Under the pieces are notes generated by a model. It worked only from the letters and a program-made list of their open reading frames with translations. It had not been told where the DNA came from and ran no database searches. Shown here piece by piece: positions 1 to 17,099 of a DNA stretch of 46,910 nucleotides. The position numbers and the translations under genes were made by a program. Source of the DNA: a virus. The stretch is taken from positions 1 to 46,910 of IMG/VR virus record IMGVR_UViG_3300046517_001587. One strand, 5' to 3'. Each line of letters begins with the position of its first letter. Position 1 is the first letter of the stretch.

Positions 1-90
1 CGGCGCGAACTGCTGCTCTGGTGGTGGTGGCGGGGGCGGTTCTTCTACCTGCGTCCCGTAGTCGCCTACCTCATCGAGTGGACTCGCCAT
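1..90 (-). CDS. Proline-rich protein, N-terminal fragment (runs off left edge)
   Basis: An ATG at 88-90 opens a frame that stays open to the window edge (30 codons). The product begins MASPLDEVGDYG and then has EE, seven prolines and EQQ. The start lies just after the stop of the preceding gene at 92-94, with an AGGGA sequence upstream as a possible ribosome binding site. The polyproline-EQQ segment resembles the C-terminus of that preceding gene, so the two may be related virion-associated proteins. The 3' part is outside the window and the function is unknown. Confidence 0.55.
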   Translation of the reverse strand, partial: MASPLDEVGDYGTQVEEPPPPPPPEQQFAP

Positions 91-91
91 G

Positions 92-1423
92 TCATCCCTG
101 TTGCTCTGGTGGCGGTGGTGGCGGCGTTGGTGGCGGCGGTGGGAGTGGGCGTCGAGCACCAGCAGTCGCTGGCGTAGCGCCACCTAAAAAGCCTGCACTG
201 GATATATCGGTCTTGTTAATGTCCAAAGCGGGCGAGGTTTCAGTTTCCGGTCGCGGATTGCCTTGAGTCGGAGTCCCGACGCGCGCAGCCTGAGCGTTAC
301 TAACCCCTGCCGCGGTCCTTGCACCAGCAGCCGCGTCCTGAGCTTGGTTCGAGGTTCCTCCACCAAAGGATACCGCAAGCGGAGCCGCTGGCGGCGTAGG
401 AACGCCAGTAGCAGGCATCCCGCCTCGTGGAAATGCAGCAGCCAGCCGGTCCACCGGACTCATTGCCGTTTCCGGTGTCATGGGAACCGGCTTCATGCCG
501 GTTAAATTCGAGGCTGACAGATCGATCCCTGAGGCTTGCGGCTCGGGTGTGCCGCCGAAATTAGCGATCGGTTTGCCACCAAAGGAGAGATCTATCCCGC
601 CAACCTTGCCAGGTGGCGCTACCGGAGCCAGCCTGTCGGGTACTTGCGGAGCGCCAGCAACATCGCCCACCATCGAAAACCCGCCAATGCCCGGTTTTAT
701 TGCGGGCGCAGCGGGTTTCCCAGCCGCAGCGTAATCAGGGTTTGGAAAAAAGTTTGGCCGACTGTGAGGACTTCCGGTATGACCTATCACCGAATCGACG
801 TTGTACACCGCACCCTTCTGCCCATACACCCCTTCCTCGTCACGCCAAGGAACGGTCATGTGCGTTTCGTACTTGTTGGGACCGGTAATCAACACCCGAT
901 GCGCTCCCGGTTTGTTCGGATCGCCAAGAGTTCCAGCTTCAAGCGGTTTGTAGCCTGTCCCTCCTTCAACCGACTGCATCCCCGCCTGAGGCGAACCCGC
1001 TGGAGCAACCGGTGTCGTAACTGCTGGCGCTGCCGCTGGTGTTCCCCATTCAGCCCTCGGCCTGTTCATCGCAGATGGCGGCGCCTCAGTACGAGGCGAA
1101 GTAATAACCGCGTTCGCTCTGGCGTCCTGACCAGGATCATACCCGCCGCGGTTAGGACCAGCGATCAACGTTTGTCCCTGCGGAGTGCCGGTCACCGCAT
1201 TAGGCGAAGGGCGCCCAGCAATCGCATCGCGTGAAAGCGGGACTCCGTGAAAACTCGTTACCGCCGTACGCCTACCGCCACCAGAAGCGCGCTGCGCTCT
1301 GTCGCTAGCTAGGCGCTGGCGTGCTTGTGGAGCAGGAGCAACGGCAGCACCAGCAGAGGAACTGGTGTTAGGCGCGTCAGAGTCCTGCGGGTTGAGAAGC
1401 GACCTGCGACGATCTGTAGCCAT
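92..1423 (-). CDS. Proline/alanine/glycine-rich disordered protein
   Basis: This 443-residue protein lies directly downstream of the large terminase gene. Nearly the whole length is low-complexity sequence rich in P, A, G, S and T. One more ordered-looking island lies near residues 170-230 (HRVLITGPNKYETHMTVPW and following). The C-terminus is a polyproline run ending in PEQQG. No enzymatic motif is visible. The position between TerL and the expected portal and capsid genes suggests a structural or accessory virion protein, but that is inference. A long ORF on the opposite strand is a shadow. Confidence 0.7.
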   Translation of the reverse strand: MATDRRRSLLNPQDSDAPNTSSSAGAAVAPAPQARQRLASDRAQRASGGGRRTAVTSFHGVPLSRDAIAGRPSPNAVTGTPQGQTLIAGPNRGGYDPGQDARANAVITSPRTEAPPSAMNRPRAEWGTPAAAPAVTTPVAPAGSPQAGMQSVEGGTGYKPLEAGTLGDPNKPGAHRVLITGPNKYETHMTVPWRDEEGVYGQKGAVYNVDSVIGHTGSPHSRPNFFPNPDYAAAGKPAAPAIKPGIGGFSMVGDVAGAPQVPDRLAPVAPPGKVGGIDLSFGGKPIANFGGTPEPQASGIDLSASNLTGMKPVPMTPETAMSPVDRLAAAFPRGGMPATGVPTPPAAPLAVSFGGGTSNQAQDAAAGARTAAGVSNAQAARVGTPTQGNPRPETETSPALDINKTDISSAGFLGGATPATAGARRPLPPPPPTPPPPPPEQQG

Positions 1424-1474
1424 GCCAGCGCCCTTTGCCGATAAGCCACCAGCTTTGGCAAGAAAAAAACTTTT

Positions 1475-3577
1475 CTAGCTCCACTGCGCTTTCGCCAGAT
1501 CGCGCTTAACCGGCGTAGCAAACAACCCTTCCTGCACCTTCATGTAGCGGGTGGCGCGGACAATCTCTTTCATACCCACGCCCACCGCTTCGGCGTCCCG
1601 TTTCTCCTTGGCGTTACTCGCCGTCACCTGAAACATCTGCATCACCGTTTCAATGTCCTGCACATCGAGCAGCTTCTTGCGCACGGCCTCGGCCAGCGCG
1701 CCTATCCAGATCGAACGGTTGTACTCGTTGCTCTCCCACCCGAACGTAACCAGCTCCGTGCGCCCGTGCCGAAATCGCTCGAGATCCTCGCGGCTGTAGA
1801 TCGAAATCCCCGCTGTCAGCAAGTTGTCGATAATGTCGCCCCGCTCATTGGCAATCGGGATTGTGAAACAATCGCCATACCAGCGCGTCAACGCCAACAC
1901 CGACTGCGCCAGCGGTCCCGCATCGAGCCGACACGGTTTACGCATCTTCGCTACCACGCGCGCGGGCGATACCGACTTGGTCTTTTCGTCAAGCGTTCCC
2001 GCCCGAATCACGATCACCGAGTGATGCCCGAACACATCGTCGTGCCACACCGGATCGACCACGCACAGGTAATGCCTGCCGATGATCGGGCGCTCCCACA
2101 CATCGAGCCACGAGTTCTGCGCCGCCAGTTCGTAGGTTACGTCTTTCCCAGCCAACGTCAGCGAACAGCGTTCCGGCGAGCTCGCGCGCGCAATCGATTC
2201 CAACCGGCGCAAACCCACTTCATCCAAGAGCGCAGCCGAAAGCGCCGTGTCGATCGCCATTGCGCCAGCCAAGGAATCAAACCTGTCAGGCGATTCAACC
2301 CCGCGCTTCGCCATATCCTTCTTGGCCTCGTTGCCCAAGAGGCCGTCGCTGGTGAATTTAATGCGCCTGGTCGTGGCCTGCCGGTACAGAATCGGATCGT
2401 TGGGAATAATCTCGCTCTGGTTCTGGATCTTCTTACTGGCCTCGTGCCAGTGTTCGGCGCCCAAGTTCTCGTAAATCGGGTTAACCGGTGGAGCATCGTT
2501 GTTGACCGCGATAATCGGCCAACCCATTTCGTGGAACCGGCTGATAATCGCTATCCCCATCCCCCCAGCGTCCCCGCGCGTTTCACTCGGGAGCAGCCCG
2601 CGCTTGGTAAACTCCATGATGCACCGCCCGATCGAGGACATGACGTTGGCGTCGCGCCAGATCACCTGCTCGTACTTGTTGCCTTCCTTGAACGTAATCA
2701 CGTTCTCGTTGCGGCCGGCCGCGAAATCCACAAATGCCGCTTTACCCCCGTGCACGTACTGCGGCTTGGCTTCCATCGCCAGTTTCATCGCCGCCTTGGG
2801 AACGATAAACATCGTGTCGGCGTCGGCGTCCATGAACTCCCCGAACAACGTGGATTGCGTGAAAGGATGATCGATCCCGTATTCAGCAATCGTCGTGTCG
2901 ATGCGCTCCTTCGAGATCCACGGGCAGTCTTTTAACCCGACTTTCATGCAGGAGAAACCTGTCGGATTCTTCTTCGAGCGTTTGAGGATCGTCTGAGAAT
3001 CGTAGAAGCGTCCTTCGTTGAGTCCCGGCGAACTCACGTAGCCCTGCGCGTTGTACGTGCACCGGTTCCCAGCGTCGAACACCCCGTTCTCGATTGACTT
3101 CGCCTCGTCAAACAACATGATGCACGGCCCATCTATATCGTCGATCTTATGCCAACCCTCCGCTCGACCTGGATCGTCTGTCGTGAACCCCACGATAAAC
3201 CCGCCCTCGGGCGTGTGTACCTCGCGTTCGATGAAGCGCCACCCTTTCTCGTTCTCGAACTTCGAGCGGTGCTGCGTTATGGCAGGCCAACACTGATGGT
3301 CGAGCTGCTTGGAATCGAAACTTACTATTACGAACTTGGGCCGCAGAAACATCGACAAACACCACAACCCCAGCCCCGCCACAATCACTGAGCTTTTCCC
3401 GCTCCCATTCGGTGTCGCCAGACTCGCGCGCACCACACGCCGCGGATCACGGAATTTGTTGAGAAAATCAGCCTGCCACCAGGCAAGCTGCTTACTGCCT
3501 TGCAAGAGGATCCGGTAAACGAATCCCGCCGGCGTCGTAATCAACCGACGCTCCTCCTCGTTTAACTCGGCAAACAC
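1475..3577 (-). CDS. Large terminase subunit (TerL), unusually long
   Basis: This is the motor ATPase and nuclease that packages DNA into procapsids. Walker A is PNGSGKSS (residues 56-63) and Walker B is CIMLFDEA (152-159). The nuclease part appears twice. The first candidate RNase H-like domain has D284 in VDFAAG, D337 in GDAGG and D434 in DRFDSLAGA. The second has D508 in VVDP, E578 in NERGD and D661 in DAEAVGVG. At 700 residues it is longer than the usual 450-600. The start is GTG at 3577; no other start lies between it and an in-frame stop 13 codons upstream. It overlaps the upstream gene by 16 bases. Confidence 0.93.
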   Translation of the reverse strand: MFAELNEEERRLITTPAGFVYRILLQGSKQLAWWQADFLNKFRDPRRVVRASLATPNGSGKSSVIVAGLGLWCLSMFLRPKFVIVSFDSKQLDHQCWPAITQHRSKFENEKGWRFIEREVHTPEGGFIVGFTTDDPGRAEGWHKIDDIDGPCIMLFDEAKSIENGVFDAGNRCTYNAQGYVSSPGLNEGRFYDSQTILKRSKKNPTGFSCMKVGLKDCPWISKERIDTTIAEYGIDHPFTQSTLFGEFMDADADTMFIVPKAAMKLAMEAKPQYVHGGKAAFVDFAAGRNENVITFKEGNKYEQVIWRDANVMSSIGRCIMEFTKRGLLPSETRGDAGGMGIAIISRFHEMGWPIIAVNNDAPPVNPIYENLGAEHWHEASKKIQNQSEIIPNDPILYRQATTRRIKFTSDGLLGNEAKKDMAKRGVESPDRFDSLAGAMAIDTALSAALLDEVGLRRLESIARASSPERCSLTLAGKDVTYELAAQNSWLDVWERPIIGRHYLCVVDPVWHDDVFGHHSVIVIRAGTLDEKTKSVSPARVVAKMRKPCRLDAGPLAQSVLALTRWYGDCFTIPIANERGDIIDNLLTAGISIYSREDLERFRHGRTELVTFGWESNEYNRSIWIGALAEAVRKKLLDVQDIETVMQMFQVTASNAKEKRDAEAVGVGMKEIVRATRYMKVQEGLFATPVKRDLAKAQWS

Positions 3578-3822
3578 AACATCTTCACGATCACTAACAC
3601 GAACTTCGTGTCCTTCTTATGCCGAGGCAGTTTCAGCGCGTGGACCATCCGATCGTCCTTCACCCGGCAAAGCGAAAACACGATGTGGCTCGTCGTCACC
3701 ACCGGCACCAGATATAAATCGCGCCGCTCGGCCTGCCCATTCTGGTTGCCCAGCATGAAACCCTCCTGCGCCAGCCATGCGCCCACAGGCTTCTTGTAGT
3801 AGCTCGGAAAATCTATGTTCAA
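3562..3822 (-). CDS. Hypothetical protein upstream of TerL
   Basis: The product is about 86 residues if translation starts at the TTG at 3820-3822, whose TTGA overlaps the stop of the small proline-rich frame upstream. It opens with NIDFPSYYKKPVGAW. A longer frame reaches 3960 with another TTG start, but that extension is S/T/A-rich and looks like a shadow of the proline-rich frame. The C-terminus overlaps the TerL start. I do not recognise the family. The start is uncertain. Confidence 0.6.
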   Translation of the reverse strand: MNIDFPSYYKKPVGAWLAQEGFMLGNQNGQAERRDLYLVPVVTTSHIVFSLCRVKDDRMVHALKLPRHKKDTKFVLVIVKMLCLPS

Positions 3823-3920
3823 TAGCGTGGCGCCCTCGGCACTCGAGGCTTCGGCACGCTCGGCGGTTTGGGCGGTTGCGGTGGTTTGGGAAGTCGCGGA
3901 CCTGGTGTCTTGATTGCCAT
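3819..3920 (-). CDS. Small K/P-rich basic peptide (candidate)
   Basis: An ATG-started frame of 33 residues begins MAIKTPGPRLPKPP and continues with a PPxPP/PKP pattern. It ends in a TGA that overlaps the likely TTG start of the next gene. A GAG lies about six bases before the ATG. It is highly basic and probably unstructured. It is a better-looking translation of this stretch than the alternative frame, but it is too short for confidence. Confidence 0.4.
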   Translation of the reverse strand: MAIKTPGPRLPKPPQPPKPPSVPKPRVPRAPRY

Positions 3921-3977
3921 AACGCTCAATGCTTTTGGCTCGACTAATCCACCCGCGCAAGTTATTTCACCCTGACC

Positions 3978-4187
3978 ATGCCGCAGTTCGGTTCATGGAA
4001 AGAGGAACAGGCTTACTATCTGGCAGAAGGATTCCAAATCGCTCAAGCCAATTGCCGCCAGTGCGGCCACAAACATACCGTCATCGTTTTTCCCAGTTCC
4101 CACAAAGGCGATTACGTCAACCTCGACTGCGACATCTGCACCGCAGCCCTACTCGAAATCGCCCAAATCCTCGTCCCCGCCCTCTAA
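3978..4187 (+). CDS. Small zinc-ribbon protein
   Basis: This 69-residue protein has two CxxC knuckles, CRQCGH near residue 25 and CDIC near residue 51, separated by about 25 residues as in a treble-clef or zinc-ribbon fold. It is the only likely plus-strand gene in the left block. Its TAA stop overlaps the TAG of the convergent membrane-protein gene (4184-4187). No strong Shine-Dalgarno is visible before the ATG. A nucleic-acid or protein-binding role is possible but not shown. Confidence 0.65.
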   Translation: MPQFGSWKEEQAYYLAEGFQIAQANCRQCGHKHTVIVFPSSHKGDYVNLDCDICTAALLEIAQILVPAL

Positions 4188-4330
4188 ATGTGATGCGTGA
4201 GTAAAAGGACCAGCACGATCACTATCAGGATCACAAACAGTCCGTGCGACCGGTAGCCATACCCATAACCGCCTGTCGGTATCCCCCCGCACAACAAGAG
4301 GATCAGCAGAATTATAAGGATCAACCCCAT
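4184..4330 (-). CDS. DUF3309-like two-helix membrane protein, 48 aa
   Basis: A hydrophobic N-terminal helix (MGLILIILLILLL) is followed by a Gly/Tyr-rich turn (GGYGYGYRSHG) and a second helix (LFVILIVIVLVLLL). This pattern is like the small DUF3309 family found in bacteria and phages. The ATG at 4328-4330 overlaps the stop of the upstream frame as TAATG. The stop overlaps that of the convergent zinc-ribbon gene. A role in the membrane is certain if it is expressed; a holin or accessory lysis role is only a guess. Confidence 0.65.
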   Translation of the reverse strand: MGLILIILLILLLCGGIPTGGYGYGYRSHGLFVILIVIVLVLLLTHHI

Positions 4331-4641
4331 TACAACATCACCAGTTGGGTTTGAGTATCTTGATCCCGATGATCACGAACAATATCAACGTCACGATCGC
4401 GTTCGCCCTCGGCGCCCATGTCATTTCCGGTGGCGCAAAGCATCCGATCGCTATCAACAACAGCAGGATCCAGTAGAATATCACTAGTAGGCTCATGCCC
4501 AGCCTCTTTACCAAACACCGGACATTCTGCCAAGAACCTTTCTCGCCCTTCGCCCAGCACGTACCCACACTCACACCGCCACCGCAAATCCTGCTTCACT
4601 GCCCACTTCTTAACCGGATCGATCACCAGCCGATGCGTCAT
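4330..4641 (-). CDS. Zinc-ribbon-like protein overlapping a membrane-protein frame
   Basis: This 103-residue frame begins MTHRLVIDPVKKW and has CECG near residue 24 and a further Cys in AECPVFG, suggesting a metal-binding N-terminal half. The second half is charged (D/R/E-rich) and lies over the hydrophobic frame at 4338-4496, so it may be a shadow that lacks a stop. The ATG is preceded by GGGAAAAG. It ends in TAATG with the DUF3309-like gene. The N-terminal half is probably real; how far the protein extends is uncertain. Confidence 0.5.
   Translation of the reverse strand: MTHRLVIDPVKKWAVKQDLRWRCECGYVLGEGRERFLAECPVFGKEAGHEPTSDILLDPAVVDSDRMLCATGNDMGAEGERDRDVDIVRDHRDQDTQTQLVML
4338..4496 (-). 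CDS. Two-TM small membrane protein nested in another frame
   Basis: A 52-residue frame starts at the ATG at 4494-4496. It has one hydrophobic helix (LLVIFYWILLLLIAIG), a short loop with two prolines, and a second helix (AIVTLILFVIIGI) ending KPNW. It lies wholly inside the 4330-4641 frame. Size and topology suit a small holin or similar membrane protein, but no family is recognised. An in-frame start further upstream at 4574 would add a less plausible N-terminus. Confidence 0.5.
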   Translation of the reverse strand: MSLLVIFYWILLLLIAIGCFAPPEMTWAPRANAIVTLILFVIIGIKILKPNW

Positions 4642-4694
4642 AATCAGGCTTTTCCCTACCGCTTTTTTCTTGCTAAAACGCGATTCTCTTTCAC

Positions 4695-4706
4695 GGTTAC
4701 GTTACC
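4695..4706. repeat. 12-bp repeat GGTTACGTTACC, copy 1
   Basis: The exact 12-mer, itself a GTTAC direct repeat, occurs in the gap upstream of the 4641 gene. It occurs again at 5855-5866 in the non-coding region below terS. Both copies lie in gaps between minus-strand genes. Confidence 0.4.
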
Positions 4707-4759
4707 ACCCGCTCCCGCTCCACAAGCGCACACCCTCGACGAGAGCATGATGCGCCTCT

Positions 4760-5023
4760 TTACGTGGAGCCGGGAGCACCCCCAGCCTCCCGCGCCGATG
4801 CGCGCCCCAATCGTTTCCCCAACACAGCCAAAAGCCGCGTCATCAATCCCTCCTGCTCCACTAACAACTCCTGATCCGTGACGTCCAATCCCTTGAACCC
4901 CTCTCCCTTCAAAAATTCACGCAGCTTCCCCAACCGCTCCTCCAACTGGTCCCCCTCAGCCCTCAGTCGCCCACGCCAACCAGCAGGCTTCTTATACGTG
5001 CTCCCATCAGTTACCTCGTTCAT
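4760..5023 (-). CDS. Small charged helical phage protein (crAss001_48-like)
   Basis: The 87-residue product begins MNEVTDGSTYKKP and continues as a charged helical domain (DQLEERLGKLREFL ... ELLVEQEGLMTRLLAVLGKRL). This pattern resembles a widespread small phage family that I recall as crAss001_48-related; the function is unknown. The ATG at 5021-5023 was chosen because a longer upstream extension would read through the tRNA. The first 25 bases nearly duplicate the start of the gene at 5330. The tRNA 3' end is only eight bases upstream. Confidence 0.75.
   Translation of the reverse strand: MNEVTDGSTYKKPAGWRGRLRAEGDQLEERLGKLREFLKGEGFKGLDVTDQELLVEQEGLMTRLLAVLGKRLGRASAREAGGAPGST
4999..5023 (-). 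repeat. 25-bp direct repeat at a gene start, copy 1
   Basis: This segment encodes MNEVTDGS and matches 5306-5330 at 22 of 25 positions, in the same orientation. The two copies bracket a 71-codon gene and the tRNA. Confidence 0.7.
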
Positions 5024-5031
5024 AACAATAA

Positions 5032-5103
5032 TTGCGGGAAAGGGACTCGAACCCTCGACCTTTCGGTTATGAGCCGAACGCGCTGCCTCTGCGCCACCCC
5101 GCG
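5032..5103 (-). tRNA. tRNA-Met (CAT), initiator-like
   Basis: The 72-nt cloverleaf, read on the minus strand, has acceptor CGCGGGG/TCCCGCA, D arm GCGC-AGAGGCA-GCGC, anticodon arm TTCGG-CTCATAA-CCGAA, variable loop AGGTC, T arm GAGGG-TTCGAGT-CCCTT and discriminator A. The anticodon CAT is at 5069-5071. CCA is not encoded. Position 1 is C opposite A72, the unpaired end typical of bacterial initiator tRNA. The anticodon loop and variable loop also match initiator tRNA as I know it from E. coli. The D-stem pair C11-G24 is elongator-like, so identity is not certain. Confidence 0.92.
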
Positions 5104-5114
5104 TCAATTTTCCC

Positions 5115-5330
5115 TTATACCCCGCGCTTCTCCCCGTGCGCCCCTCGCCCAGCACTCGTTATCGTCCCCGCTCCCAAGTGACTCCCCTTCTCCCGAGGAT
5201 CATTCGTCGTCCCTTCCTTCTGGTGCGTCACTATCTTCTCCCCACCACCCTTCGGCCCCGGCGCTTTCGATTGTAACCGCGGATTCTGACTCCCATGCCT
5301 GTGATTGCTTCCATCAGTGACTTCGTTCAT
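5115..5330 (-). CDS. Small hypothetical protein (MNEVTDGS start)
   Basis: The product is 71 residues, rich in G, K, H and P, with the N-terminus MNEVTDGSNHRHGSQNPR. It shares its first eight residues and 22 of its first 25 bases with the gene at 5023. The remainder is different and low in complexity. It ends 11 bases before the tRNA and follows the 5341-5526 gene after ten bases. The family is not recognised. It could also be a partial duplication rather than a functional gene. Confidence 0.5.
   Translation of the reverse strand: MNEVTDGSNHRHGSQNPRLQSKAPGPKGGGEKIVTHQKEGTTNDPREKGSHLGAGTITSAGRGAHGEKRGV
5306..5330 (-). repeat. 25-bp direct repeat at a gene start, copy 2
   Basis: Partner of 4999-5023 (22 of 25 identical). 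It overlaps the start codon of the 71-codon gene. Confidence 0.7.
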
Positions 5331-5340
5331 ACCGCCCATC

Positions 5341-5526
5341 CTACAACGCCTTCCCGCAGTGTGGACACTTTTTTCGACGCCGACGATACCCGCGCATATA
5401 CGCAGCACGATCCCGATGCTCCACCTTCACCCCTGATCCCACCGGTTCACCCGAAATCTTCGCCGCCCCCAAATTTCGCCCAGCCTCCCGCTCAAACTTC
5501 GCGCGGCTCTCAGGCGTTTCTATCAT
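5341..5526 (-). CDS. Small basic protein with C-terminal zinc knuckle
   Basis: The 61-residue product begins MIETPESRAKFEREAG. It has a basic tract RGYRRRRKK followed by CPHCGKAL at the C-terminus, so a single CxxC knuckle follows a positively charged helix. This suggests nucleic-acid binding, possibly with metal shared between subunits. The ATG overlaps the stop of a tiny upstream frame as ATGA. Confidence 0.6.
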   Translation of the reverse strand: MIETPESRAKFEREAGRNLGAAKISGEPVGSGVKVEHRDRAAYMRGYRRRRKKCPHCGKAL

Positions 5527-5594
5527 CCATCAATCTCTAACCCCACCCCTCCGTTCTCGCCAGAAAATTTGACCGCGCACTCGGCGCAAGGCAT
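5523..5594 (-). CDS. Tiny 23-aa frame with CxxC (doubtful)
   Basis: An ATG at 5592-5594 opens MPCAECAVKFSGENGG and ends in ATGA with the next gene. The CAEC motif and the translational coupling are the only support. The sequence before it is a run of nine G on this strand and a hairpin, not a clear ribosome binding site. Confidence 0.25.
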   Translation of the reverse strand: MPCAECAVKFSGENGGVGLEIDG

Positions 5595-5930
5595 TATATC
5601 TGACCCCCCCCCGCCTCGCGTCCAGGCGGGCATCGACGCTAATGGCTTAACCCAAGGCTCTCCTGCTCTGTGGGTGTGGCGCAGGCCAAGCAAGCGTAAA
5701 GCGAACAAAGCCAAGGGCCGCGCTGCGCGTGGAGCGCCAGCGAAGGGCTGCTCCCGCTCAAAGATCAAGGCCAAGGGTGGCGCGAGGCGATCCGCTCTTG
5801 ATGATGTGCGCTACACCATGCGATCCCCTAGCGTGGCGCTAGGTAGCGACTGATGGTTACGTTACCGAGGGTGATGATAGCCGAGGCCGCAAACAAACGC
5901 GTTTACGGGCATCCTCGCGCGTTTCCCTAG
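5595..5930. other. Structured non-coding region below terS
   Basis: No convincing gene lies in these 336 bases. There is a run of nine C (5604-5612), a perfect 7-bp hairpin CCCGCCT/AGGCGGG (5610-5630), a perfect 7-bp hairpin CCTAGCG/CGCTAGG with a 3-nt loop (5827-5843), recurring GCCAAG words, and the second copy of GGTTACGTTACC. Its place beside the small terminase gene makes it a candidate packaging (pac or cos) region or a small RNA locus; neither is shown. A plus-strand frame at 5569-5853 looks compositional rather than coding. Confidence 0.45.
5855..5866. repeat. 12-bp repeat GGTTACGTTACC, copy 2
   Basis: Exact match to 4695-4706, located in the non-coding stretch downstream of terS. 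Confidence 0.4.
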
Positions 5931-6740
5931 CTAAGTTTCGGGCAATTTCTCGAACTCGGCGTCGATCACCGGCGAATCCAGCAAGAATTGGCGATTGATC
6001 GAGCGCAGCTCGTGGCGCTGATCTTCGGTCAAGACGAACACATCACCGCGAGCGCCGACGTTCACGTTTACGCCAGCGGTCTTGAAGCGATCCGGCTTCC
6101 AAGCGCGGAGAAGCTCGATCTGGAGTTTGCTGTCAAACTTCCGAATGTAGGCCACCGGCACGCCCATATACCACACGGGTTCGATGTCGCCTTCCAAGGA
6201 TCGCTGCCAAACGCGGCTGTGGAGCAGCTCCAACGCATCCTCAATCGCGGCGTCCCATTGCTTTGCGAAGTCGGGATCGTCCTTGCGGTGCAGGTAAGCG
6301 CATCCACGCGATACCTTGGCGTGACGCGAGGAAAGAAGGACGGAGTTTGTCATGGCCAAGGCCGCAAGGAAGCGAGGTCGCCAGTGGAGCGCGTGGCGAG
6401 CGTACGCGCGTTGCTCAGTGTCCAAGTGATGCAAACGCGATTCGAGGAAGGGCGTAACGAGTTTCCATTTTTCGCTTGAGGCGACCATGAACCGCTTGGC
6501 ATGATTGATAGCGATACGTTGCGCGTTGCGAACACCGGAAGGGCCAGCGGCGATGGCGGCTTCGAGGGATTGAGTATTGAAACCGATTTCAGGTGGTGGC
6601 GCGGGTTCGATGGAATCGCGGAAATCTGCTTTGGCGGCTGGGGAGCGTTTCGCTGGGTTTTTGAAGTTATCGAGCGTTGATTTGCCCTCGTGAACTTCGG
6701 TTGAATCCGCCTGGTTTTTCGCGTTCGACTTGTTAGGCAT
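5931..6740 (-). CDS. Small terminase subunit (TerS)
   Basis: This is the DNA-recognition partner of TerL. About 80 disordered N-terminal residues are followed by a domain with the pattern FLAALAMTNSVLLSSRHAKV (helix-turn-helix), a CAYLHRKDDPDFAKQWDAAI helix, and EPVWYMGVPVAYIRKFDSKL leading to RAWKPDRFK. This is the usual terminase small-subunit layout (allergic-to-gap HTH, then EPVFYKG-like strand, then R-rich tail). I use the ATG at 6738-6740; an ATG at 6776 and a GTG at 6854 are in frame, and none has a good ribosome binding site. TerL is 2.3 kb further downstream. Confidence 0.85.
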   Translation of the reverse strand: MPNKSNAKNQADSTEVHEGKSTLDNFKNPAKRSPAAKADFRDSIEPAPPPEIGFNTQSLEAAIAAGPSGVRNAQRIAINHAKRFMVASSEKWKLVTPFLESRLHHLDTEQRAYARHALHWRPRFLAALAMTNSVLLSSRHAKVSRGCAYLHRKDDPDFAKQWDAAIEDALELLHSRVWQRSLEGDIEPVWYMGVPVAYIRKFDSKLQIELLRAWKPDRFKTAGVNVNVGARGDVFVLTEDQRHELRSINRQFLLDSPVIDAEFEKLPET

Positions 6741-6815
6741 CGCTGGCGTATTCGTTTGTGACCAATGACGCTTCATACCAAGAAATTGGTTAGGGGGGAA
6801 GCATAAAATTTGGTG

Positions 6816-6844
6816 TTGACTGTCGGGATAAGTAATGGCATAAG
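6816..6844 (+). promoter_or_regulatory. Promoter of the plus-strand operon (TTGACT-N17-CATAAG)
   Basis: The -35 is TTGACT at 6816-6821 and the -10 is CATAAG at 6839-6844, with a 17-base spacer. The predicted start is near 6851, just before a leader hairpin and the first plus-strand gene. Its layout matches the promoter at 10377. Confidence 0.6.
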
Positions 6845-6853
6845 GGGAATACA

Positions 6854-6869
6854 CGAGGCGTCCACCTCG
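6854..6869 (+). promoter_or_regulatory. Leader hairpin 1
   Basis: CGAGGCGTCCACCTCG forms a 5-bp stem with an inner G-C pair and sits about three bases after the predicted transcription start. It shares GGYGTCCACC with the hairpin at 10416 and, like it, is followed by an A-rich AGAAAGG ribosome binding site. It could be an mRNA-stabilising 5' hairpin or a protein-binding palindrome. Confidence 0.5.
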
Positions 6870-6886
6870 AAAAAAGAAAGGTTCGA

Positions 6887-7222
6887 TTGAGAGTCCAAGT
6901 ATATTTCAATTTGCACAAGAAAGTGTGGAGTGTGCGTCACAAGGGGAAGGTGATAGCGCACGGTGAAAGGCTGGCGTTACGCGATTGTGTTTGCAAGGTG
7001 AATGAGAAGGCGCGGCTGCGGGTAATCGAACTAAAGCGGCGTGAAGTTCATGCGTGGATAGAGGGGGAATTGTGCGAAATGCCGGTGACTCGTGAGGGGT
7101 TCGAGGCGTTCAGTTACAATCCATACAAGGCTGCGGGATTCGTTGCAGCGGAAGGAATTTTCTGGACGGCGGAAGCCGTCCTATTCGAGGGCAGGTTGGC
7201 GTTAAAGAAAGGAAAAGTATGA
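6887..7222 (+). CDS. Hypothetical phage protein, TTG start
   Basis: This is the first gene of the plus operon, 111 residues. TTG at 6887 is used as start because AGAAAGG lies at 6875-6881 and no ATG fits. The product begins RVQVYFNLHKKVWSVRHKGK and contains a NPYK motif near residue 85. I recall similar 'VQVYFNLHKKxxSVR' proteins in other phages, without known function. It looks like a compact basic alpha/beta protein. It ends in ATGA with the next gene. Confidence 0.8.
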   Translation: MRVQVYFNLHKKVWSVRHKGKVIAHGERLALRDCVCKVNEKARLRVIELKRREVHAWIEGELCEMPVTREGFEAFSYNPYKAAGFVAAEGIFWTAEAVLFEGRLALKKGKV

Positions 7223-7461
7223 CAAAAGCAATGGCGGCGATGGTCACTAAATACCATGCGATAAGCGATGCGCGTGGGGAGTGGCAGGCGGCGTGGGTAA
7301 GGGCTTGCGCGGCTGATGGGATACCGGCGAACGAGGGGTCAAAGTTCGTTGTGTTCAGTGAAGGCAATCCGCACAAGGCGGAATTGGACTTGGCGGGGGC
7401 GAAATACTTGGCGGCGATTCACGCGATGAAGCCGCAGAACAGCGAGGGGGTGTGCGCGTGA
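7219..7461 (+). CDS. Hypothetical protein, 80 aa
   Basis: The start ATG overlaps the previous stop (ATGA) and is preceded by AAGAAAGGAAA. The product begins MTKAMAAMVTKYHAISDAR, is mostly helical by composition and has no recognisable motif. Its stop overlaps the GTG start of the next gene. Confidence 0.7.
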   Translation: MTKAMAAMVTKYHAISDARGEWQAAWVRACAADGIPANEGSKFVVFSEGNPHKAELDLAGAKYLAAIHAMKPQNSEGVCA

Positions 7462-8111
7462 AACACACTCGTTATTTTGTGATGCCGACCACTGGCGACG
7501 GCTTGCACACGCAGCCCTACCCAGTGGCGCTGGCCGAGGTTGGCGAGCATATCAAAAACTGGTTGGGCCGTTTCGAGCATCAAGGGTATTACAGCGGGAT
7601 TGGATGCCGGATCGCGTTGAATGAAATCGGTTTCAAGTTGGAGCCGGTGGAGTGCGGGGAAGATGGGGAGCCGTGGGATTGGACGCATTGCGCGGTATGC
7701 GACAAGGCGTTGGATAGTCACGGCGATTGCAGCGATGCCGAGTGCAAGACGCACAAGGAAGAATACACGGGGGAGCCGCAAGGCTCCTCCGTTGCTGGGG
7801 TGCGAGTTGTGGGGCCGGAAGAATTGGTAGCGATCCTGCGAAGGGATGAGAAGGCCAACCGCGAGCATCTGGAGCGCGAGGAATTGCGCGACGAATTGGA
7901 AGCGGCGACCGGCCAAGCGTACAGCGACGAGGCGCTACAAGCGCACATCGACGCGGCGAGCGGTGGATACAAAGACAAGCTAACAGAAGAAGAAAAAGCC
8001 TTTATCGCGGAGCGCGAGAGCGACAACGCGAAGATTGAAGCGGCGAGAGAGTACAGCGCCGAGGACATAGAGGAATGGCAGCGCCGGAGTGAAGAACAAG
8101 GAACTGAATAA
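7458..8111 (+). CDS. Hypothetical protein with Cys cluster and acidic helical tail, GTG start
   Basis: GTG at 7458 was chosen over GTG at 7452 because GAGGGGG sits seven bases upstream and the start overlaps the previous stop (GTGA). The 217-residue product has an N-terminal domain (KHTRYFVMPTTGDG; WLGRFEHQGYYSG), a Cys cluster (CAVCDKALDSHGDCSDAEC near 85-105) that may bind zinc, and a long charged helical C-terminal half. The function is unknown. Confidence 0.8.
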   Translation: MKHTRYFVMPTTGDGLHTQPYPVALAEVGEHIKNWLGRFEHQGYYSGIGCRIALNEIGFKLEPVECGEDGEPWDWTHCAVCDKALDSHGDCSDAECKTHKEEYTGEPQGSSVAGVRVVGPEELVAILRRDEKANREHLEREELRDELEAATGQAYSDEALQAHIDAASGGYKDKLTEEEKAFIAERESDNAKIEAAREYSAEDIEEWQRRSEEQGTE

Positions 8112-8135
8112 CAAACAAGAAAGGAAAAAGCAGAA

Positions 8136-9182
8136 ATGATAAACGACGGAACATACAACATAGCAGGGCAGATAATCGAGGCGGCGAACGCGATCAGCGA
8201 CAAGTTCGCGGGGATGGCAACAGGCGGCGGGTGCGACTACATCGTGCGCTTCATCAATCCAGACAAAGACATGGCCGAGCGGAAGGTTCAATTCCTTCCC
8301 TCGCCTGTGCTGGTGATGGGATCGGCGATTGACGCGGGAACGCCGGACGATCTAACCGAGGCGTCGAGGGTGACGCTGTATCTGGATCAGGACGATTGGA
8401 GCGGGTGTCAGTCGATCACGTTCGAGTTTAAGAACGCGATTGAGGCGTTGCGCTGGATGGGCAGTTACGACACCAGCCACTACGAGCCGAACGGTCAGAC
8501 GGCGCTAGAAATGGCGCTGGCGTTGGGCTTCGATTCGGTGGAGCGGATGCACGAACATCAAACATGGTTGGAAGAACACGGCAGCAAGGAGTTTCAATCG
8601 TGGCTGGCGACGATCCGGCAACACTCGCAGGAAGCTAAACGCGGCTTCAAGGTTGGCGATCTGGTGCGCTTTGTGCGGCAGGTTGACCGATTCCCGCATT
8701 TCAGTGTGCCAGTGGGCGCAACCGGCGTACTGGTGGAATACACGAGGGGAAGCCTGATCGGTGAGGCCGAACACAAGGTTGGCGGGTGCGCTCATGTGCG
8801 CGTTCACGCTACGCTTTCGGGCGGGGAAGAATGGGACAACTGCGTGGAGTGGATCGACGATCTGGAAACCTTCGAGGATTTCCACAAAGATGTGGAATTG
8901 TGGAAGCACGAACCGTCGCGGATTTGTGGTTGCCCGCGCTGCGCGTACGCTCAACGCGAGGTAGATACGCATACGGTGTTCGCATGGGTGCGCTGCATTG
9001 GTGACGGCAGTTATCTGTATCACTTCAAGGACAACGGCGTGGCGGTGTTCACCAAGAACAAGAGCGAGGCGCAACGCTGGCGCACGAATAACAAGGCGCT
9101 AAAAAACCTGATCGGCTTCGGGCATGGCGTCTATCAATTCGAGGACGACGAGGGCAAGAAGATCGAGCCGAAATTCAACTAA
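8136..9182 (+). CDS. Hypothetical protein, 348 aa, CxC/CxxC near C-terminus
   Basis: The ATG follows AAGAAAGGAAAAAGCAGAA. The product is soluble and mixed alpha/beta. A central stretch (GFKVGDLVRFVRQVDRF ... PVGATGVLVEYT) looks like a small beta-barrel (SH3- or KOW-like) module. A CGCPRC cluster lies near residue 275 and aromatic-rich strands follow. I do not recognise the whole protein. It is the longest gene of the plus operon, followed by an 85-base gap that holds a GGTGG-AAGAA-CCACC hairpin (9234-9248) before the next ribosome binding site. Confidence 0.8.
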   Translation: MINDGTYNIAGQIIEAANAISDKFAGMATGGGCDYIVRFINPDKDMAERKVQFLPSPVLVMGSAIDAGTPDDLTEASRVTLYLDQDDWSGCQSITFEFKNAIEALRWMGSYDTSHYEPNGQTALEMALALGFDSVERMHEHQTWLEEHGSKEFQSWLATIRQHSQEAKRGFKVGDLVRFVRQVDRFPHFSVPVGATGVLVEYTRGSLIGEAEHKVGGCAHVRVHATLSGGEEWDNCVEWIDDLETFEDFHKDVELWKHEPSRICGCPRCAYAQREVDTHTVFAWVRCIGDGSYLYHFKDNGVAVFTKNKSEAQRWRTNNKALKNLIGFGHGVYQFEDDEGKKIEPKFN

Positions 9183-9267
9183 CGCCAACAAGCGCGGCGT
9201 CGGGCTTTGTCATACCGGCGCTGCGCGATTGGCGGTGGAAGAACCACCAGCAGAAAGAAAGGAAAAA

Positions 9268-9645
9268 ATGAAAGCACCAGTTAGAAAAATAGACGCTGGC
9301 TTTCAAGCCTACCATTGGCTTGATAACGGCGAGGAAGTGACCGGCACGGGCCGCGACAAGGCGACGGCGAGAAAGAATCTCAGCCGCGAATTGCAGCGGC
9401 GTAATCACCTGCCACCAGCGGCAGCAATCAAAACGATATGGGACGCTGACGCTGAAACCAGCACAGAGGCGCTCCTGATCTGCGCTCCAACTCACGCGGA
9501 TATTCAGCGTATGGCTGGATTCCCCGTTGACGACGAGGATCGAGCGATTGCCGAGGAAGATGAAGCCGTGAGGCACGGCGCGGAAACCGAGCCTTACACA
9601 CACGCCGAGGCGATGGCGCGTTGGGAAGCATGGGGTGGCGAATAA
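9268..9645 (+). CDS. Hypothetical protein, 125 aa
   Basis: The ATG at 9268 is preceded by AAGAAAGGAAAAA; a longer upstream reading has no such signal. The product begins MKAPVRKIDAGFQAYHWLDN and its acidic second half ends AMARWEAWGGE. No motif is recognised. The stop overlaps the next start as TAATG. Confidence 0.75.
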   Translation: MKAPVRKIDAGFQAYHWLDNGEEVTGTGRDKATARKNLSRELQRRNHLPPAAAIKTIWDADAETSTEALLICAPTHADIQRMAGFPVDDEDRAIAEEDEAVRHGAETEPYTHAEAMARWEAWGGE

Positions 9646-10172
9646 TGCGCGATCCGATTCTATCAAGCGATCCAAACGCGGTGGCACAGTTAAGCGAGAA
9701 ACTCGCGGAGCTGGAAACGCGGCGCGACAAGATGAAAGCAGTAAACGCCGCGTGGCGCTCATTCGTAAAAACCGGGAATCCCGACAAGCTGCGCGCTTTC
9801 GGGATCGACGAGGCCGTGATGAAGGAAAAAATCGACGCGGCGCACTCGTGGGAGAAACAACCGTATGTCGGCTGGCAAATCACCAATCTCGGCGCACAAA
9901 TCCGCACGGTGAAAGAGCGGATCAACACTGTGTCGCGTGTTCAGGCGCAGCCGGAGCAGAAGATCGAAGGCGACATGGGAATCCGATACGAGGATTCACC
10001 GGCAGACAATCGGGTGCGGCTGTTCTTCCCTGACATACCGGCGCGGGAGATCCGCGAGAAACTCAAAAGCAACGGGTTTCGCTGGACTCCGACTCTCGGA
10101 TGCTGGCAAGCCTACCGCAACTGGCGAGCCGAAACGCTGGCGCGAACGATGATCGGGCAGGTGGTCGCGTGA
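9645..10172 (+). CDS. Helical plus 'NGFRWxP' domain protein
   Basis: Start by TAATG coupling, 175 residues. The N-terminal half is a coiled helical region (QLSEKLAELETRRDKMKAVN) followed by GWQITNLGAQIRTVKERI. The C-terminal half carries RLFFPDIPAREIREKL and NGFRWTPTLGCWQAYRN. I recall this two-part pattern (Kxxxxx-AxxRxIKxRI, then NGFRWSPxxxAWQR) in many phage and plasmid proteins of unknown role, sometimes fused to DUF3560-type proteins. Its distribution suggests a host-interaction or anti-restriction context, which is inference. Confidence 0.75.
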   Translation: MRDPILSSDPNAVAQLSEKLAELETRRDKMKAVNAAWRSFVKTGNPDKLRAFGIDEAVMKEKIDAAHSWEKQPYVGWQITNLGAQIRTVKERINTVSRVQAQPEQKIEGDMGIRYEDSPADNRVRLFFPDIPAREIREKLKSNGFRWTPTLGCWQAYRNWRAETLARTMIGQVVA

Positions 10173-10273
10173 ACAAAAACGAATATCGAGTGAAACACGA
10201 CAAACGAGTGGCCTTCTGGCTGGCGCTAGGATTGCTTCTGGCTTGCGTTCTCGGGCTTTGGCTGTGGCTGTGA
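10169..10273 (+). CDS. Single-pass small membrane protein, 34 aa, GTG start
   Basis: GTG overlaps the previous stop as GTGA. A basic N-terminus (MNKNEYRVKHDKR) is followed by one hydrophobic helix (VAFWLALGLLLACVLGLWLW) that ends the protein, so it is probably inserted with the N-terminus in the cytoplasm. It is the last gene before the second promoter. The function is unknown. Confidence 0.6.
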   Translation: MNKNEYRVKHDKRVAFWLALGLLLACVLGLWLWL

Positions 10274-10376
10274 GTTCGTGACAATCCGCGCATCATGGCG
10301 AGGCTGTGGTGCGCGGGATGATGCGAATTGAACGGCTTTCGAGGGGACAGGGTACAGAATCAGGCGAAAAAAAGGC

Positions 10377-10405
10377 TTGCCTTGTCCGATACTTAGCGCG
10401 ATAAG
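10377..10405 (+). promoter_or_regulatory. Second promoter of plus operon (TTGCCT-N17-GATAAG)
   Basis: The -35 is TTGCCT at 10377-10382 and the -10 is GATAAG at 10400-10405, with a 17-base spacer, in a 183-base gap. The predicted start is near 10412. The ATAAG -10 and the following hairpin repeat the design of the promoter at 6816. Confidence 0.6.
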
Positions 10406-10415
10406 GATGCAAATA

Positions 10416-10431
10416 GCCGGTGTCCACCGGC
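10416..10431 (+). promoter_or_regulatory. Leader hairpin 2
   Basis: GCCGGTGTCCACCGGC is a perfect 7-bp inverted repeat with a 2-nt centre. It is the same length as leader hairpin 1 and shares its core GGYGTCCACC. It begins about four bases after the predicted start and is followed by AAAAGAAAGG and the next ATG. Confidence 0.55.
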
Positions 10432-10456
10432 AACCAACAACCAAAAGAAAGGTAAA

Positions 10457-11056
10457 ATGAAGAAGCTAAACATGGGCGGCGCAACAACCGCCAGCAGCAA
10501 AACCAAGAGCAATCATCCCACCGTCGAAGCTGGGGATCGACTGTCGGCCTTGCTCTCGCAGTTCATCGTAGTGAATCCCCAATACAAAGCGTTCAAGGCA
10601 CAGCACGAAACCTTGAGCCGCGACATTGGCGCGGAAACCCGCCCAATGTATTTCGATCACTTCGCCGGACTCGTTCCAGAGTCCAGCACGATGCTGACCG
10701 AAGTCGATCACCGAGGCGTCAAGCTGATCGTCAAAGACGCTTACAGCAAAAACGTAGTCAACGACGAGGCGCTTCGACGCGCCATTGGCGACGATCTGGT
10801 AGAAAAGTATTTCGAGTGGCGCACGGAATACAAGGTGGACTATTCCAAGATTCCCGAAGCCAAACAGGAACCCTTCGCCAACGGCGTTGAGGAACTGAGG
10901 GCGCGGCTGGGAGTGCCAGCCGAGGCCGTGACCGCCAAGCAATACCTCGCGCCTAGAGCGGGATTCCACCAGAGCCGCACGGTCTTGTTGACCGCCGAGC
11001 AGAACAAGGCGCTGGACAACGAAATGCCGGTAACGGCGTATCCGATGCTGGCCTAG
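10457..11056 (+). CDS. Conserved-looking hypothetical protein, 199 aa
   Basis: This is the first gene after the second promoter, with AAGAAAGGTAAA before the ATG. A variable N-terminus is followed by a compact domain (YFDHFAGLVPESSTMLTEVD, VKLIVKDAYSKNVVNDEALR, VEKYFEWRTEYKVD) and a C-terminal AKQYLAPRAGFHQSRTVLLT with a conserved-looking LTAEQNKALD. Being the first gene and lying directly before the ligase gene, it may act with it in DNA handling; this is inference. Confidence 0.75.
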   Translation: MKKLNMGGATTASSKTKSNHPTVEAGDRLSALLSQFIVVNPQYKAFKAQHETLSRDIGAETRPMYFDHFAGLVPESSTMLTEVDHRGVKLIVKDAYSKNVVNDEALRRAIGDDLVEKYFEWRTEYKVDYSKIPEAKQEPFANGVEELRARLGVPAEAVTAKQYLAPRAGFHQSRTVLLTAEQNKALDNEMPVTAYPMLA

Positions 11057-11057
11057 C

Positions 11058-11723
11058 ATGGAAGCAACACTGAATAACGCGCTGGTGTCCTATCCACCAG
11101 CGCCACAAAACGGGGGTGCGCTCGATCTAGCGCCAGACAAGATAGGCGATTGGGCGTGGCAACCGAAGATCGACGATTGGCGCGGCGTTGTGAACGTCGA
11201 AACCGATCAGGTCTGGAACCAATACGGCGAATTGTCCACCGTCGCAGCGCAAGGCAAGATTGCCGTCGCGCTGGCGAAGTTTAAGACGTTAGTGGCGTTC
11301 ATGCCTCTATCTGCTGGATCGCCAAAACTGTGGGACGTTGGAATCATGGAAAACCGGCACGATCTGATGCGCGGTTGCCTCGTGATTTTCGACTTCATGG
11401 ATTCACCGATTACGCACGGCGTTCGACGCGCTCTGATGGAACAGGTGTTCCCGATCCTGCCAATCGCTTCGCGGCTGCTGGCAGATGGGCAGGTGCGTGA
11501 CCGCGTTTACCTAATCAACGAGTGGCGCAACGAAACGCATCCAGAAATGCTCAAGGGCAAAGTCGTAATGACGCTGCAACTGCTCCTGCAACGCGAGAAC
11601 GAGATTGTCGGTCACAAGTTCTACGAAGGGCTGGTCGCCAAGAGGCGCGACGTTACCTATCCGGCGAAGTCAGCGCCGAAGCAGAAAACCAACTGGTGGA
11701 TCAAACATCGTTTCGACCAATGA
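11058..11723 (+). CDS. Minimal ATP-dependent DNA ligase / adenylyltransferase domain
   Basis: Nucleotidyltransferase motifs are in order: motif I KIDDWRG (Lys37 would carry AMP), motif III-like VIFDFMD near residue 110, motif IV EGLVAKR (190-196) and motif V NWWIKHRF (212-219). The protein stops two residues after motif V, so there is no room for the usual OB-fold domain with motif VI. It should seal nicks in DNA, or perhaps RNA, if active. It is one base from the upstream gene and its stop overlaps the next start (ATGA). Confidence 0.8.
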   Translation: MEATLNNALVSYPPAPQNGGALDLAPDKIGDWAWQPKIDDWRGVVNVETDQVWNQYGELSTVAAQGKIAVALAKFKTLVAFMPLSAGSPKLWDVGIMENRHDLMRGCLVIFDFMDSPITHGVRRALMEQVFPILPIASRLLADGQVRDRVYLINEWRNETHPEMLKGKVVMTLQLLLQRENEIVGHKFYEGLVAKRRDVTYPAKSAPKQKTNWWIKHRFDQ

Positions 11724-11920
11724 ACGTCCACGAAGCACTAGCGGCGGTCGCACACGCTGACGAAACGATCAGCGGTTGCGAGGGCATCGAAGAACTGGAC
11801 GAAGCCAGCGACTACCAGACGGCGCTTGGAAATTGTCCGAGCGACTTCACACAAGAACAGATGGAATTAGCACAAAACCTCATCCTGCGAGCGTTCGAGC
11901 GTTCGATAGGGCGAGCATAG
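11720..11920 (+). CDS. Hypothetical protein, 66 aa
   Basis: The ATG overlaps the ligase stop (ATGA). It is a small acidic, probably helical protein (HEALAAVAHADETISG, EQMELAQNLILRAFERSIGR). No motif is recognised. Coupling to the ligase suggests co-expression. It is followed by a 69-base gap with two hairpins. Confidence 0.65.
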   Translation: MNVHEALAAVAHADETISGCEGIEELDEASDYQTALGNCPSDFTQEQMELAQNLILRAFERSIGRA

Positions 11921-11927
11921 TTCCCGT

Positions 11928-11971
11928 CTGGCGATTTCGGGGGAGTCGCCAGCGGGGAGCAATGACGCTCC
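11928..11971 (+). promoter_or_regulatory. Two intercistronic hairpins
   Basis: CTGGCGA/TCGCCAG (11928-11952, loop 11 nt) and GGAGC/GCTCC (11956-11971, loop AATGAC) stand between genes and are followed by AAAAACGAAAGG. There is no T-run, so they are not classic terminators. They may shield or process the mRNA before a strong ribosome binding site. Confidence 0.4.
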
Positions 11972-11989
11972 AAAAACGAAAGGAAAAAG

Positions 11990-12307
11990 ATGGATTCAAG
12001 AGCAGCAAAAGGAATCGCGGCCAACATCACGGTCATTGCCCAATGCACCGCGAGGATCGCCGTGATCGACGGCTCCGAAAATAGCGTTCGCTATTCGGAT
12101 GCGTCGATGGAAACGCGCAGCAACGACTGCGAGCGGATCGACAAGGCGCAATCGAGTATTGCCCAGTGGCTACAGCAACCGATGGCTCGCGGCAATGGGA
12201 TGATTGAGGCGCTGGCGAAAGCGCATCGCGCCTTGGACGGTGACTCTAACGACGACGAACACGACGCCCTGGTGCAGCTCGTGGAAGCCGTGGAGCAAGG
12301 CCAGTGA
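11990..12307 (+). CDS. Hypothetical protein, 105 aa
   Basis: The ATG follows CGAAAGGAAAAAG. A helical protein beginning MDSRAAKGIAANITVIAQCT, with an acidic C-terminus (DGDSNDDEHDALVQLVEAVE). No motif is recognised. It ends in GTGA with the next gene. Confidence 0.7.
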   Translation: MDSRAAKGIAANITVIAQCTARIAVIDGSENSVRYSDASMETRSNDCERIDKAQSSIAQWLQQPMARGNGMIEALAKAHRALDGDSNDDEHDALVQLVEAVEQGQ

Positions 12308-12627
12308 AATACGAAATCGACACAGTCGAATCGAATTGCACCGGCTACCTGATTGCGGTGGACAAGTCAGGAAGGCATCACCGGCTATTGGGTCTGGCGA
12401 TCTGCCAGAGCGTATGCGTGACAATCGAAAGCCGGTTCCACTACTTCAAAACCAAAGGCGACGATTGCATCGTGCGCTTCGACATTCCGCGCAAAGCCAA
12501 AGAGGGCGAACCGACGCTCGAAACGCGGCTGGAATTGTCCCAAGCGTGGCTATCGGCTGAAATGAGTCGCCTCGGAGCGTTGCAAGACGATCTGGACACC
12601 TTGGCGAAAGCGAGGGCCAACCAATGA
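12304..12627 (+). CDS. Hypothetical protein, 107 aa, GTG start
   Basis: GTG overlaps the previous stop. A beta-rich N-terminal part (KYEIDTVESNCTGYLIAVD) is followed by a C-terminal helix (WLSAEMSRLGALQDDLDTLA). No known motif. The stop overlaps the next ATG. Confidence 0.7.
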   Translation: MKYEIDTVESNCTGYLIAVDKSGRHHRLLGLAICQSVCVTIESRFHYFKTKGDDCIVRFDIPRKAKEGEPTLETRLELSQAWLSAEMSRLGALQDDLDTLAKARANQ

Positions 12628-13016
12628 GCCGCAAAAAATCATGCGCTGGCGTATATGTGGAAGATCACTATCCGGTTGGCGCTTTCGACACATCGAAGGC
12701 GAAAACGGTGAAGCCGCTAAAACACAAGGATCTCCTGCTGGCCGAAGTGGAGAAGTTTGTCAGGAAGGGTAAAACCGCGCAGAAGGCCGTCGAGAAGATC
12801 ACAAAGCATTTCGGCGGCCCAACCACCAGCATCAGGCTAACAGCGCCGGAACGGGACACGATCCTCGCGGCGCTGCGCCACTGGCAAAACCGAACCTGCT
12901 CGTTGAAGCAGCGCACACAAATGCGCGACATCGAGCTAATCTCAACCAACGGCGGCGAGCATCCGGCGCTCACCAGCCCGCAAATCAACGCGCTTTGCGC
13001 GGATCTCAACCGATGA
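12624..13016 (+). CDS. Hypothetical protein, 130 aa
   Basis: ATGA-coupled to the previous gene. A basic N-terminal half (HKDLLLAEVEKFVRKGKTAQ) is followed by a segment (ERDTILAALRHWQNRTC) typical of small phage proteins with an 'ILAALRxWQ' helix, then a polar C-terminus. The function is unknown. Confidence 0.7.
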   Translation: MSRKKSCAGVYVEDHYPVGAFDTSKAKTVKPLKHKDLLLAEVEKFVRKGKTAQKAVEKITKHFGGPTTSIRLTAPERDTILAALRHWQNRTCSLKQRTQMRDIELISTNGGEHPALTSPQINALCADLNR

Positions 13017-14218: not shown

Positions 14219-14240
14219 GCTAGGCATAAAGTGGAAATTG

Positions 14241-14269: not shown

Positions 14270-14311
14270 CGCGTAATTGGGCTTTCGAGGATGCCCGTAG
14301 AATCGTCGCAA

Positions 14312-16794: not shown

Positions 16795-16795
16795 T

Positions 16796-17098: not shown

Positions 17099-17099
17099 G

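Follow-up and report, generated by a model that had tools for sequence, protein, structure and literature searches.

Large terminases (TerL) are described with one RNase H-fold domain in the accessible portions of PMC7824862 and PMC3985635, and the terminase families treated in the latter likewise have one RNase H-like domain. In T4 gp17, the catalytic triad of this domain consists of D401, E458, and D542 (accessible portion of PMC9958956), and these positions were checked in the present analysis. A C-terminal arm following the last nuclease helix has been implicated in TerL-portal assembly, and in T4 the residue S583 is described as proven (excerpt of PMC5727402). The HK97 nuclease domains have been fitted directly beneath the portal (excerpt of PMC10359639), and the portal-binding helix-loop-helix of T4 is associated with the hinge (PMC9958956, same portion). 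Packaging genes are mobile among phages even though a TerL has to match its portal. In the open-access literature, covered by titles and the beginnings of abstracts and with subscription papers mostly outside this scope, no report was found of a TerL with two nuclease domains or with a pseudo-nuclease domain.

The window analyzed here is the whole 46,910-nucleotide stretch of a 46.9 kb IMG/VR virus record. Its TerL has two separate RNase H-type domains in tandem, as an earlier note on this DNA had proposed, in a 700-codon open frame that lies on the minus strand, the plus-strand translation having stops (Table 1). By its sequence relationships the protein is a chimera of two lineages. Residues 1-450 belong to lineage A (Akkermansia-phage-like), and residues ~451-700 comprise the hinge, nuclease domain, and tail of lineage B (T4-gp17-type). 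The second nuclease-like domain is called D2 below.

Table 1. Positions of the TerL gene, its parts, and neighboring genes in the window
Feature	Position	Strand	Remarks
TerL gene, 700 aa, two RNase H-type domains in tandem	1475..3577	minus	GTG start; same architecture in L008-L012
ATPase domain, residues 1-270, lineage A	2768..3577	minus	Walker A G60 K61, Walker B D157 E158; segment blastp
Canonical TerL nuclease (nuclease 1), residues 271-450, lineage A	2228..2767	minus	Invariant triad, PDB TerL nuclease matches, segment blastp
Catalytic D284; D336; D434	2726-2728; 2570-2572; 2276-2278	minus	In nuclease 1
Junction, residues 451-484	2126..2227	minus	A similarity ends 432-463, B starts ~451-471
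D2, residues 485-689, predicted lineage-B TerL nuclease fold, active site apparently lost	1511..2125	minus	AlphaFold2, VIA, Foldseek, blastp, motif loss
D2 motif positions D508; I575; K659-R660	2054-2056; 1853-1855; 1598-1603	minus	
C-terminal tail, residues 690-700, ends Trp-Ser	1478..1510	minus	Proposed portal-docking arm
TerS, 307 aa	5931..6854	minus	phrog_4044, E 4.4e-22; placed in lineage A mainly via sibling
443-aa protein downstream of TerL	92..1423	minus	No family match; counterpart of sibling's 531-aa gene
Major capsid protein (Phage_capsid_3)	45073..46707	minus	87-89% to sibling genome G002

A lineage-A terminase and its junction

Comparison of the TerL protein with 50,697 phage records by tblastn matched 67 records. 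Among the 60 matches listed, 57 have their end between window residues 432 and 463, the remaining three end at residue 307, and none runs past 463. The best matches are Akkermansia phages at 32-34%, with the TerLs of Chantilly, DTMo-2021a, and Chambord aligning to window residues 20-440, 52-439, and 34-440, respectively, and having the ATPase and canonical nuclease in common with the window. Unlike the window TerL, those of Chantilly and Chambord (509 and 471 aa) are without a second nuclease domain. The related TerLs examined have open frames of only 459-525 aa, or 565 aa in Sinorhizobium phage phiM5, and residues ~451-700 are therefore extra.

Residues 1-450 form a complete TerL, composed of an ATPase and a canonical RNase H-type nuclease. 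The Walker A residues G60 and K61, the Walker B residue D157, and the glutamate E158 are invariant in 13 of 13 aligned TerLs, and so are the three catalytic acids D284, D336, and D434. The TerL profile matched 8dkr_B (E 8e-19, profile positions 241-434) and Sf6 gp2 4idh (E 1.4e-14) in the PDB, both of them solved TerL nucleases, and the Pfam Terminase_6C model had no match in the window at E 10. The earlier note had listed the first acidic set as D284/D337/D434, in which D284 and D434 are correct, residue 337 is an alanine, and the acid is D336. It had also taken a second acidic set, further along the protein, as the more canonical; the reverse was found, as the first set is the canonical triad by the 13-TerL alignment and the two PDB matches. 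By the same evidence residues 271-450 are a real nuclease, and the possibility that residues 260-450 are only a linker falls away. The part up to residue 450 is thus an active-looking TerL, predicted to package and to cut DNA. One tandem locus outside the 13-TerL alignment, L012, has a 9-nt in-frame deletion of D284-F-A, and its nuclease 1 thereby lacks the Asp of motif I. Across the stretches compared, L012 (L225 is the same contig) does not otherwise differ from L010, and the deletion is either a real variant or an assembly error.

Segment-wise blastp places the join between the lineages at about residues 440-471. Residues 1-270 match the A-type TerLs (7/7) at 47.8-131 bits and the nine B-type TerLs at no more than 20.4 bits, and residues 271-450 similarly give 37.7-114 bits with all seven A-type and at most 20.0 bits with the nine B-type proteins. 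For residues 451-700 the pattern is turned around, with nine of nine B-type TerLs at 38.9-78.6 bits and the A-type TerLs at 18.5 bits or less. The junction alone (441-492) had no significant match, and the G+C content is nearly unchanged across the join.

The same architecture of 700-705 aa is present in five full-length IMG/VR loci (L008-L012) that belong to two species, 75% identical. L010, L011, and L012 are at 75% identity to the window TerL and all retain the extra part; L010 equals L011 over the whole gene, and the 75% relatives therefore count as one sibling species. The tandem architecture was found in only these two species, one of them the window's, and two scans of genome contigs found no relative. 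L027 was excluded from alignment owing to a frame break where its match begins. The ~694-aa frames from the motif scan (L145 and others) appear by eye to be upstream frame extensions and not second nucleases, and the 702-aa L228 resembles B-type TerLs, with no match to the A-type profile. Since the evidence comes from metagenome contigs only, an assembly or frame artefact joining two genes might be suspected. However, two species that are 75% identical share the join, on contigs with separate names, and a Shine-Dalgarno-like site was flagged for none of the in-frame starts near it, which makes this reading extremely unlikely. The lack of a flagged start also led to the rejection of a separate D2 product made by internal initiation.

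Fold, active site, and constraint of the second domain

Single-sequence searches with D2 against phages, plasmids, Pfam, NCBIfam, and PDB gave no matches or chance-level matches only. In hhalign, D2 scored 36.3 (P 9.8e-5, with a probability of only 58%) against T4 and 80 T4-type TerL nucleases from IMG/VR; the reversed control gave 15.4, and the highest of 100 column shuffles gave 23.5. Against the T4-type set, nuclease 1 scored 17.2, below the maximum of its own 60 shuffles (21.0). The score of D2 with nuclease 1 was 15.8, a pair without shuffles of its own, to be read beside the shuffle maxima of the two T4-type comparisons. The DNA pattern of D2 motif I retrieved 77 stretches in viral contigs. 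Among 52 distinct fragments, L203 scored 72.8 bits with the D2 of L010 (34% over 158 aa) and 66.6 bits with that of the window, and L149, L171, L179, L183, and L200 scored 50-57 bits against D2. When the motif stretch was removed, L203 still scored 47.4 bits among 66 fragments, and the highest of 100 shuffles reached 30.8; the homology of D2 is therefore no artefact of the motif used for fetching. Of the named records, Caudoviricetes sp. MW202692 is nearest to L229, at 27%.

AlphaFold2 modeled residues 485-689 from 28 alignment rows with a pLDDT of 82 and a pTM of 0.83. The best PDB matches of the model are the RB49 and T4 gp17 nucleases (Foldseek E 3.5e-8), and VIA aligned it with the RB49 gp17 nuclease at Z 19.6 and 2.6 A over 166 residues, the first non-terminase row having Z 8.8. 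Among the 50 rows shown by Foldseek against BFVD, 29 are named, and 26 of those are terminases. The AlphaFold2 alignment includes T4-like rows, and the fold match is independent only in part. When a profile was built from D2 and five near relatives, free of T4-like rows, it found RB49 gp17 in the PDB at E 0.17 only, and a profile with those rows, which reached T4/RB49 gp17 at E 3.6e-41 to 2.7e-48, was discounted as circular. D2 is thus predicted to have the RNase H-type TerL nuclease fold of the T4/RB49 gp17 kind, and its sequence is homologous to the B-type/T4-gp17-type TerL lineage, weakly so in the PDB-only test. The earlier note had suggested a duplicated or fused nuclease and a structure prediction of the second domain. 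The prediction returned a TerL nuclease fold like that of RB49/T4 gp17, with the triad lost, and the domain is a fused second terminase-nuclease domain. An internal duplication of nuclease 1 was rejected, given the lower hhalign score of D2 with nuclease 1 than with the T4-type set and the low bit scores of residues 451-700 with the seven A-type TerLs. The best structural match of D2 in BFVD is A0A6J5P7V0, a 747-aa uncultured phage terminase of 26% identity, the length of which may leave room for a similar extra domain.

Of 19 loci recovered by scanning with D2 and its close relatives, five are tandem and 14 single-nuclease, several of the 14 being near-identical. At motif II, Ile (I575) is found in 5/5 tandem loci versus Glu in 14/14 single-nuclease relatives. 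The Asp pair (DD) of motif III is absent from all five tandem loci and present in all 14 others. Motif I has Asp in 14/14 single-nuclease loci, and among the tandem loci Asp in two and Asn in three, namely L010, L011, and L012 at the position of D508. The motif alignment took in two tandem loci, the other tandem loci being the same contigs compared earlier.

On the view of the earlier note, both domains would be active nucleases and the motor would have two cutting sites per subunit, and the residues D508, E578, and D661 of its second set are indeed present in the window protein, E578 and D661 being conserved in the sibling as well. However, E578 lies three residues beyond the motif II position, and D661 aligns to a non-catalytic position. 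With the G-x-G helix behind motif III as anchor, K659-R660 take the place of the Asp pair and D661 stands one place further; in an alternative alignment there is a deletion at the Asp pair, and D661 can be aligned to the third, non-catalytic D of HHDDD. The catalytic motif III position is without Asp in either alignment, and the D-E-D triad of T4 was not found in D2. Moreover, the G20c TerL mutants D294N, D347N, and D429N, in which Asp metal ligands are replaced by Asn, show the lowest nuclease activity (accessible portion of PMC5389553), and from the order of the residues the first of these ligands would be motif I. Because the three catalytic positions are each lost or not conserved, D2 is most likely not a nuclease, and two active nucleases are very unlikely. 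Given the ambiguous alignment of motif III, a rearranged site using D508, E578, and D661 may exist in the window's species. The suggested effect on how packaging cuts are made finds no support in a domain with such catalytic positions, and a role of D2 in docking or DNA handling is likelier.

Between the two species, residues 491-680 and nuclease 1 both have a pN/pS of 0.31 (bootstrap 0.24-0.40 for residues 491-680), and the ATPase has one of 0.20, values that come from one species pair with synonymous sites near saturation. On these values, D2 is under purifying selection. A functionless recombination relic in the course of being lost would agree with the missing catalytic residues and with carriers found in two species only, but D2 has the same pN/pS as nuclease 1 and no stop in the five full-length loci, and this explanation is unlikely.

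A dead nuclease might also be kept as a DNA grip or regulator, holding DNA in the motor channel, bending it there, or keeping nuclease 1 in check, with no portal-specific role. The predicted fold is retained while the catalytic acids are gone, and the change of the motif III DD to K659-R660 in the helix-anchored alignment points the same way. The C-domain of T4 has separate grooves for translocation and for the nuclease, and linear DNA is still packaged by gp17 mutants that are nuclease-dead (PMC9958956, accessible portion). On the other hand, the net charge of D2 is 0, equal to that of the window's nuclease 1 and only slightly higher than in B-type nucleases (-3 to -8), and a grip or regulator alone leaves the common lineage of D2 and the portal unexplained. 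This role is possible but doubtful.

Portal, small terminase, and gene neighborhood

On the sibling contig G002 (67.9 kb), TerL is followed by a 531-aa gene, a giant ORF, and a portal of 848 aa (phrog_1216, E 1.3e-5), with the capsid protein encoded further on. The sibling portal matches those of contigs with B-type TerLs: 27.6% over 695 aa in G005 (E 1e-68), 26.5% over 740 aa in G009 (E 1e-60), and 36% in G015, the contig of L228 (E 1e-87). It is 80% identical to the portal on G014, a contig of the window's own species. The G005 portal is also phrog_1216 (E 1.6e-15), and the G009 homologue is weakly named as phrog_332, connector. None of five lineage-A records matches the sibling portal, the Chantilly, DTMo-2021a, and Chambord records included, and the portal of the lineage-A contig G004 is of another family, phrog_113 (E 5e-54). 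By these matches, the portal of this phage belongs to lineage B.

The small terminase (TerS) groups with lineage A, mainly through the sibling TerS, to which that of the window is 59% identical. The sibling TerS matches the lineage-A TerS of G003/G004 at 30% (E 2e-11), and the window TerS matches the same at E 1e-4; at E 0.1, neither protein has a match in the Akkermansia loci or the B contigs. The capsid protein has no match in either lineage, and the one record of 15 that it matches is the sibling itself.

The window (1..46910) is apparently a partial genome that ends before the giant ORF and portal, and the ~22 kb separating the 531-aa gene from the capsid gene in the sibling, which hold the giant ORF and portal, are absent. 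The giant ORF of G002 (about 45841-61575) is covered by L213:9342-19901 (-) and L214:3-5576 (-), pieces that overlap in the same frame by coordinates and would make about 5,245 codons. The part scanned has a match to a DNA helicase family (phrog_62, E 2.7e-19) and a weak one to a queuine tRNA-ribosyltransferase family (phrog_887). The sibling giant ORF matches that of G009 at 29% over 682 aa and has no match with that of G005 at E 1e-5. Within the window, a tRNA-Met (CAT) lies between the TerS and TerL genes at 5032-5103 (-). An SMC/RecN-like ATPase just below the Pfam cut-off (34276-36372 (-)) is in the same stretch as a UvrD-like helicase (31346-32995) and a ResIII/DEAD helicase (28538-30346), both on the minus strand. 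Two proteins, of 1009 and 1102 aa (39636-42665; 18832-22140 (-)), matched no Pfam or PHROG family at the thresholds applied.

Proposed origin and comparison with known systems

The best explanation as a whole, on balance a probable one, is a chimeric TerL that arose by cassette replacement, with an apparently dead D2 kept most likely for portal docking. The chimera, the loss of catalytic positions, the purifying selection, and the portal lineage are read from sequence, and the fold of D2 is predicted. An A-type TerS-TerL cassette would have replaced the resident B-type one by recombination, this being the presumed direction of exchange. The recombination would have spared the C-terminal part of the resident TerL, fused in frame to the A-type TerL. 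Nuclease 1 would now make the packaging cuts, and D2 has lost its catalytic acids with its predicted fold kept. Most likely, the surface of D2 and the C-terminal tail would then join the imported motor to the B-type portal of the resident phage. That D2 is such a portal-specific docking adaptor, by which a motor from one lineage works with the other lineage's portal once the foreign cassette has displaced the resident genes, is put forward tentatively, at somewhat less than even chances.

The tail ends in an aromatic residue and Ser in 5/5 tandem loci (two distinct tails) and in 9 of 11 near B-type loci, all 11 of which end in Ser. None of three more distant B/T4-like loci and none of 11 A-type loci has this ending, a short motif that was noticed after the fact. 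Aromatic-Ser also ends three TerLs of another class (seven of the 43 distinct tails in that list have it, four of them near B-type), and the docking-adaptor reading is therefore slightly less probable. An A motor with a dead B C-terminal domain, together with a B portal, hints at which part of TerL carries portal specificity. If the docking reading is true, the locus would be a natural example of a packaging-motor swap between capsid lineages.

Among known systems, the predicted fold of D2 is shared with the nuclease domain of T4/RB49 gp17 (PDB 3cpe, 3c6h), and sequence similarity reaches its maximum, 78.6 bits, with the B-type TerLs (L203/L229, L228, and others). Unlike in gp17 and the B-type TerLs, D2 is not preceded by the ATPase of its own lineage, and the D-E-D triad is absent. 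In retroviruses, the connection domain is an inactive RNase H-like domain. Retroviral pol likewise has more than one RNase H-like domain per protein, but in different proteins and lineages (accessible portion of PMC3985635).
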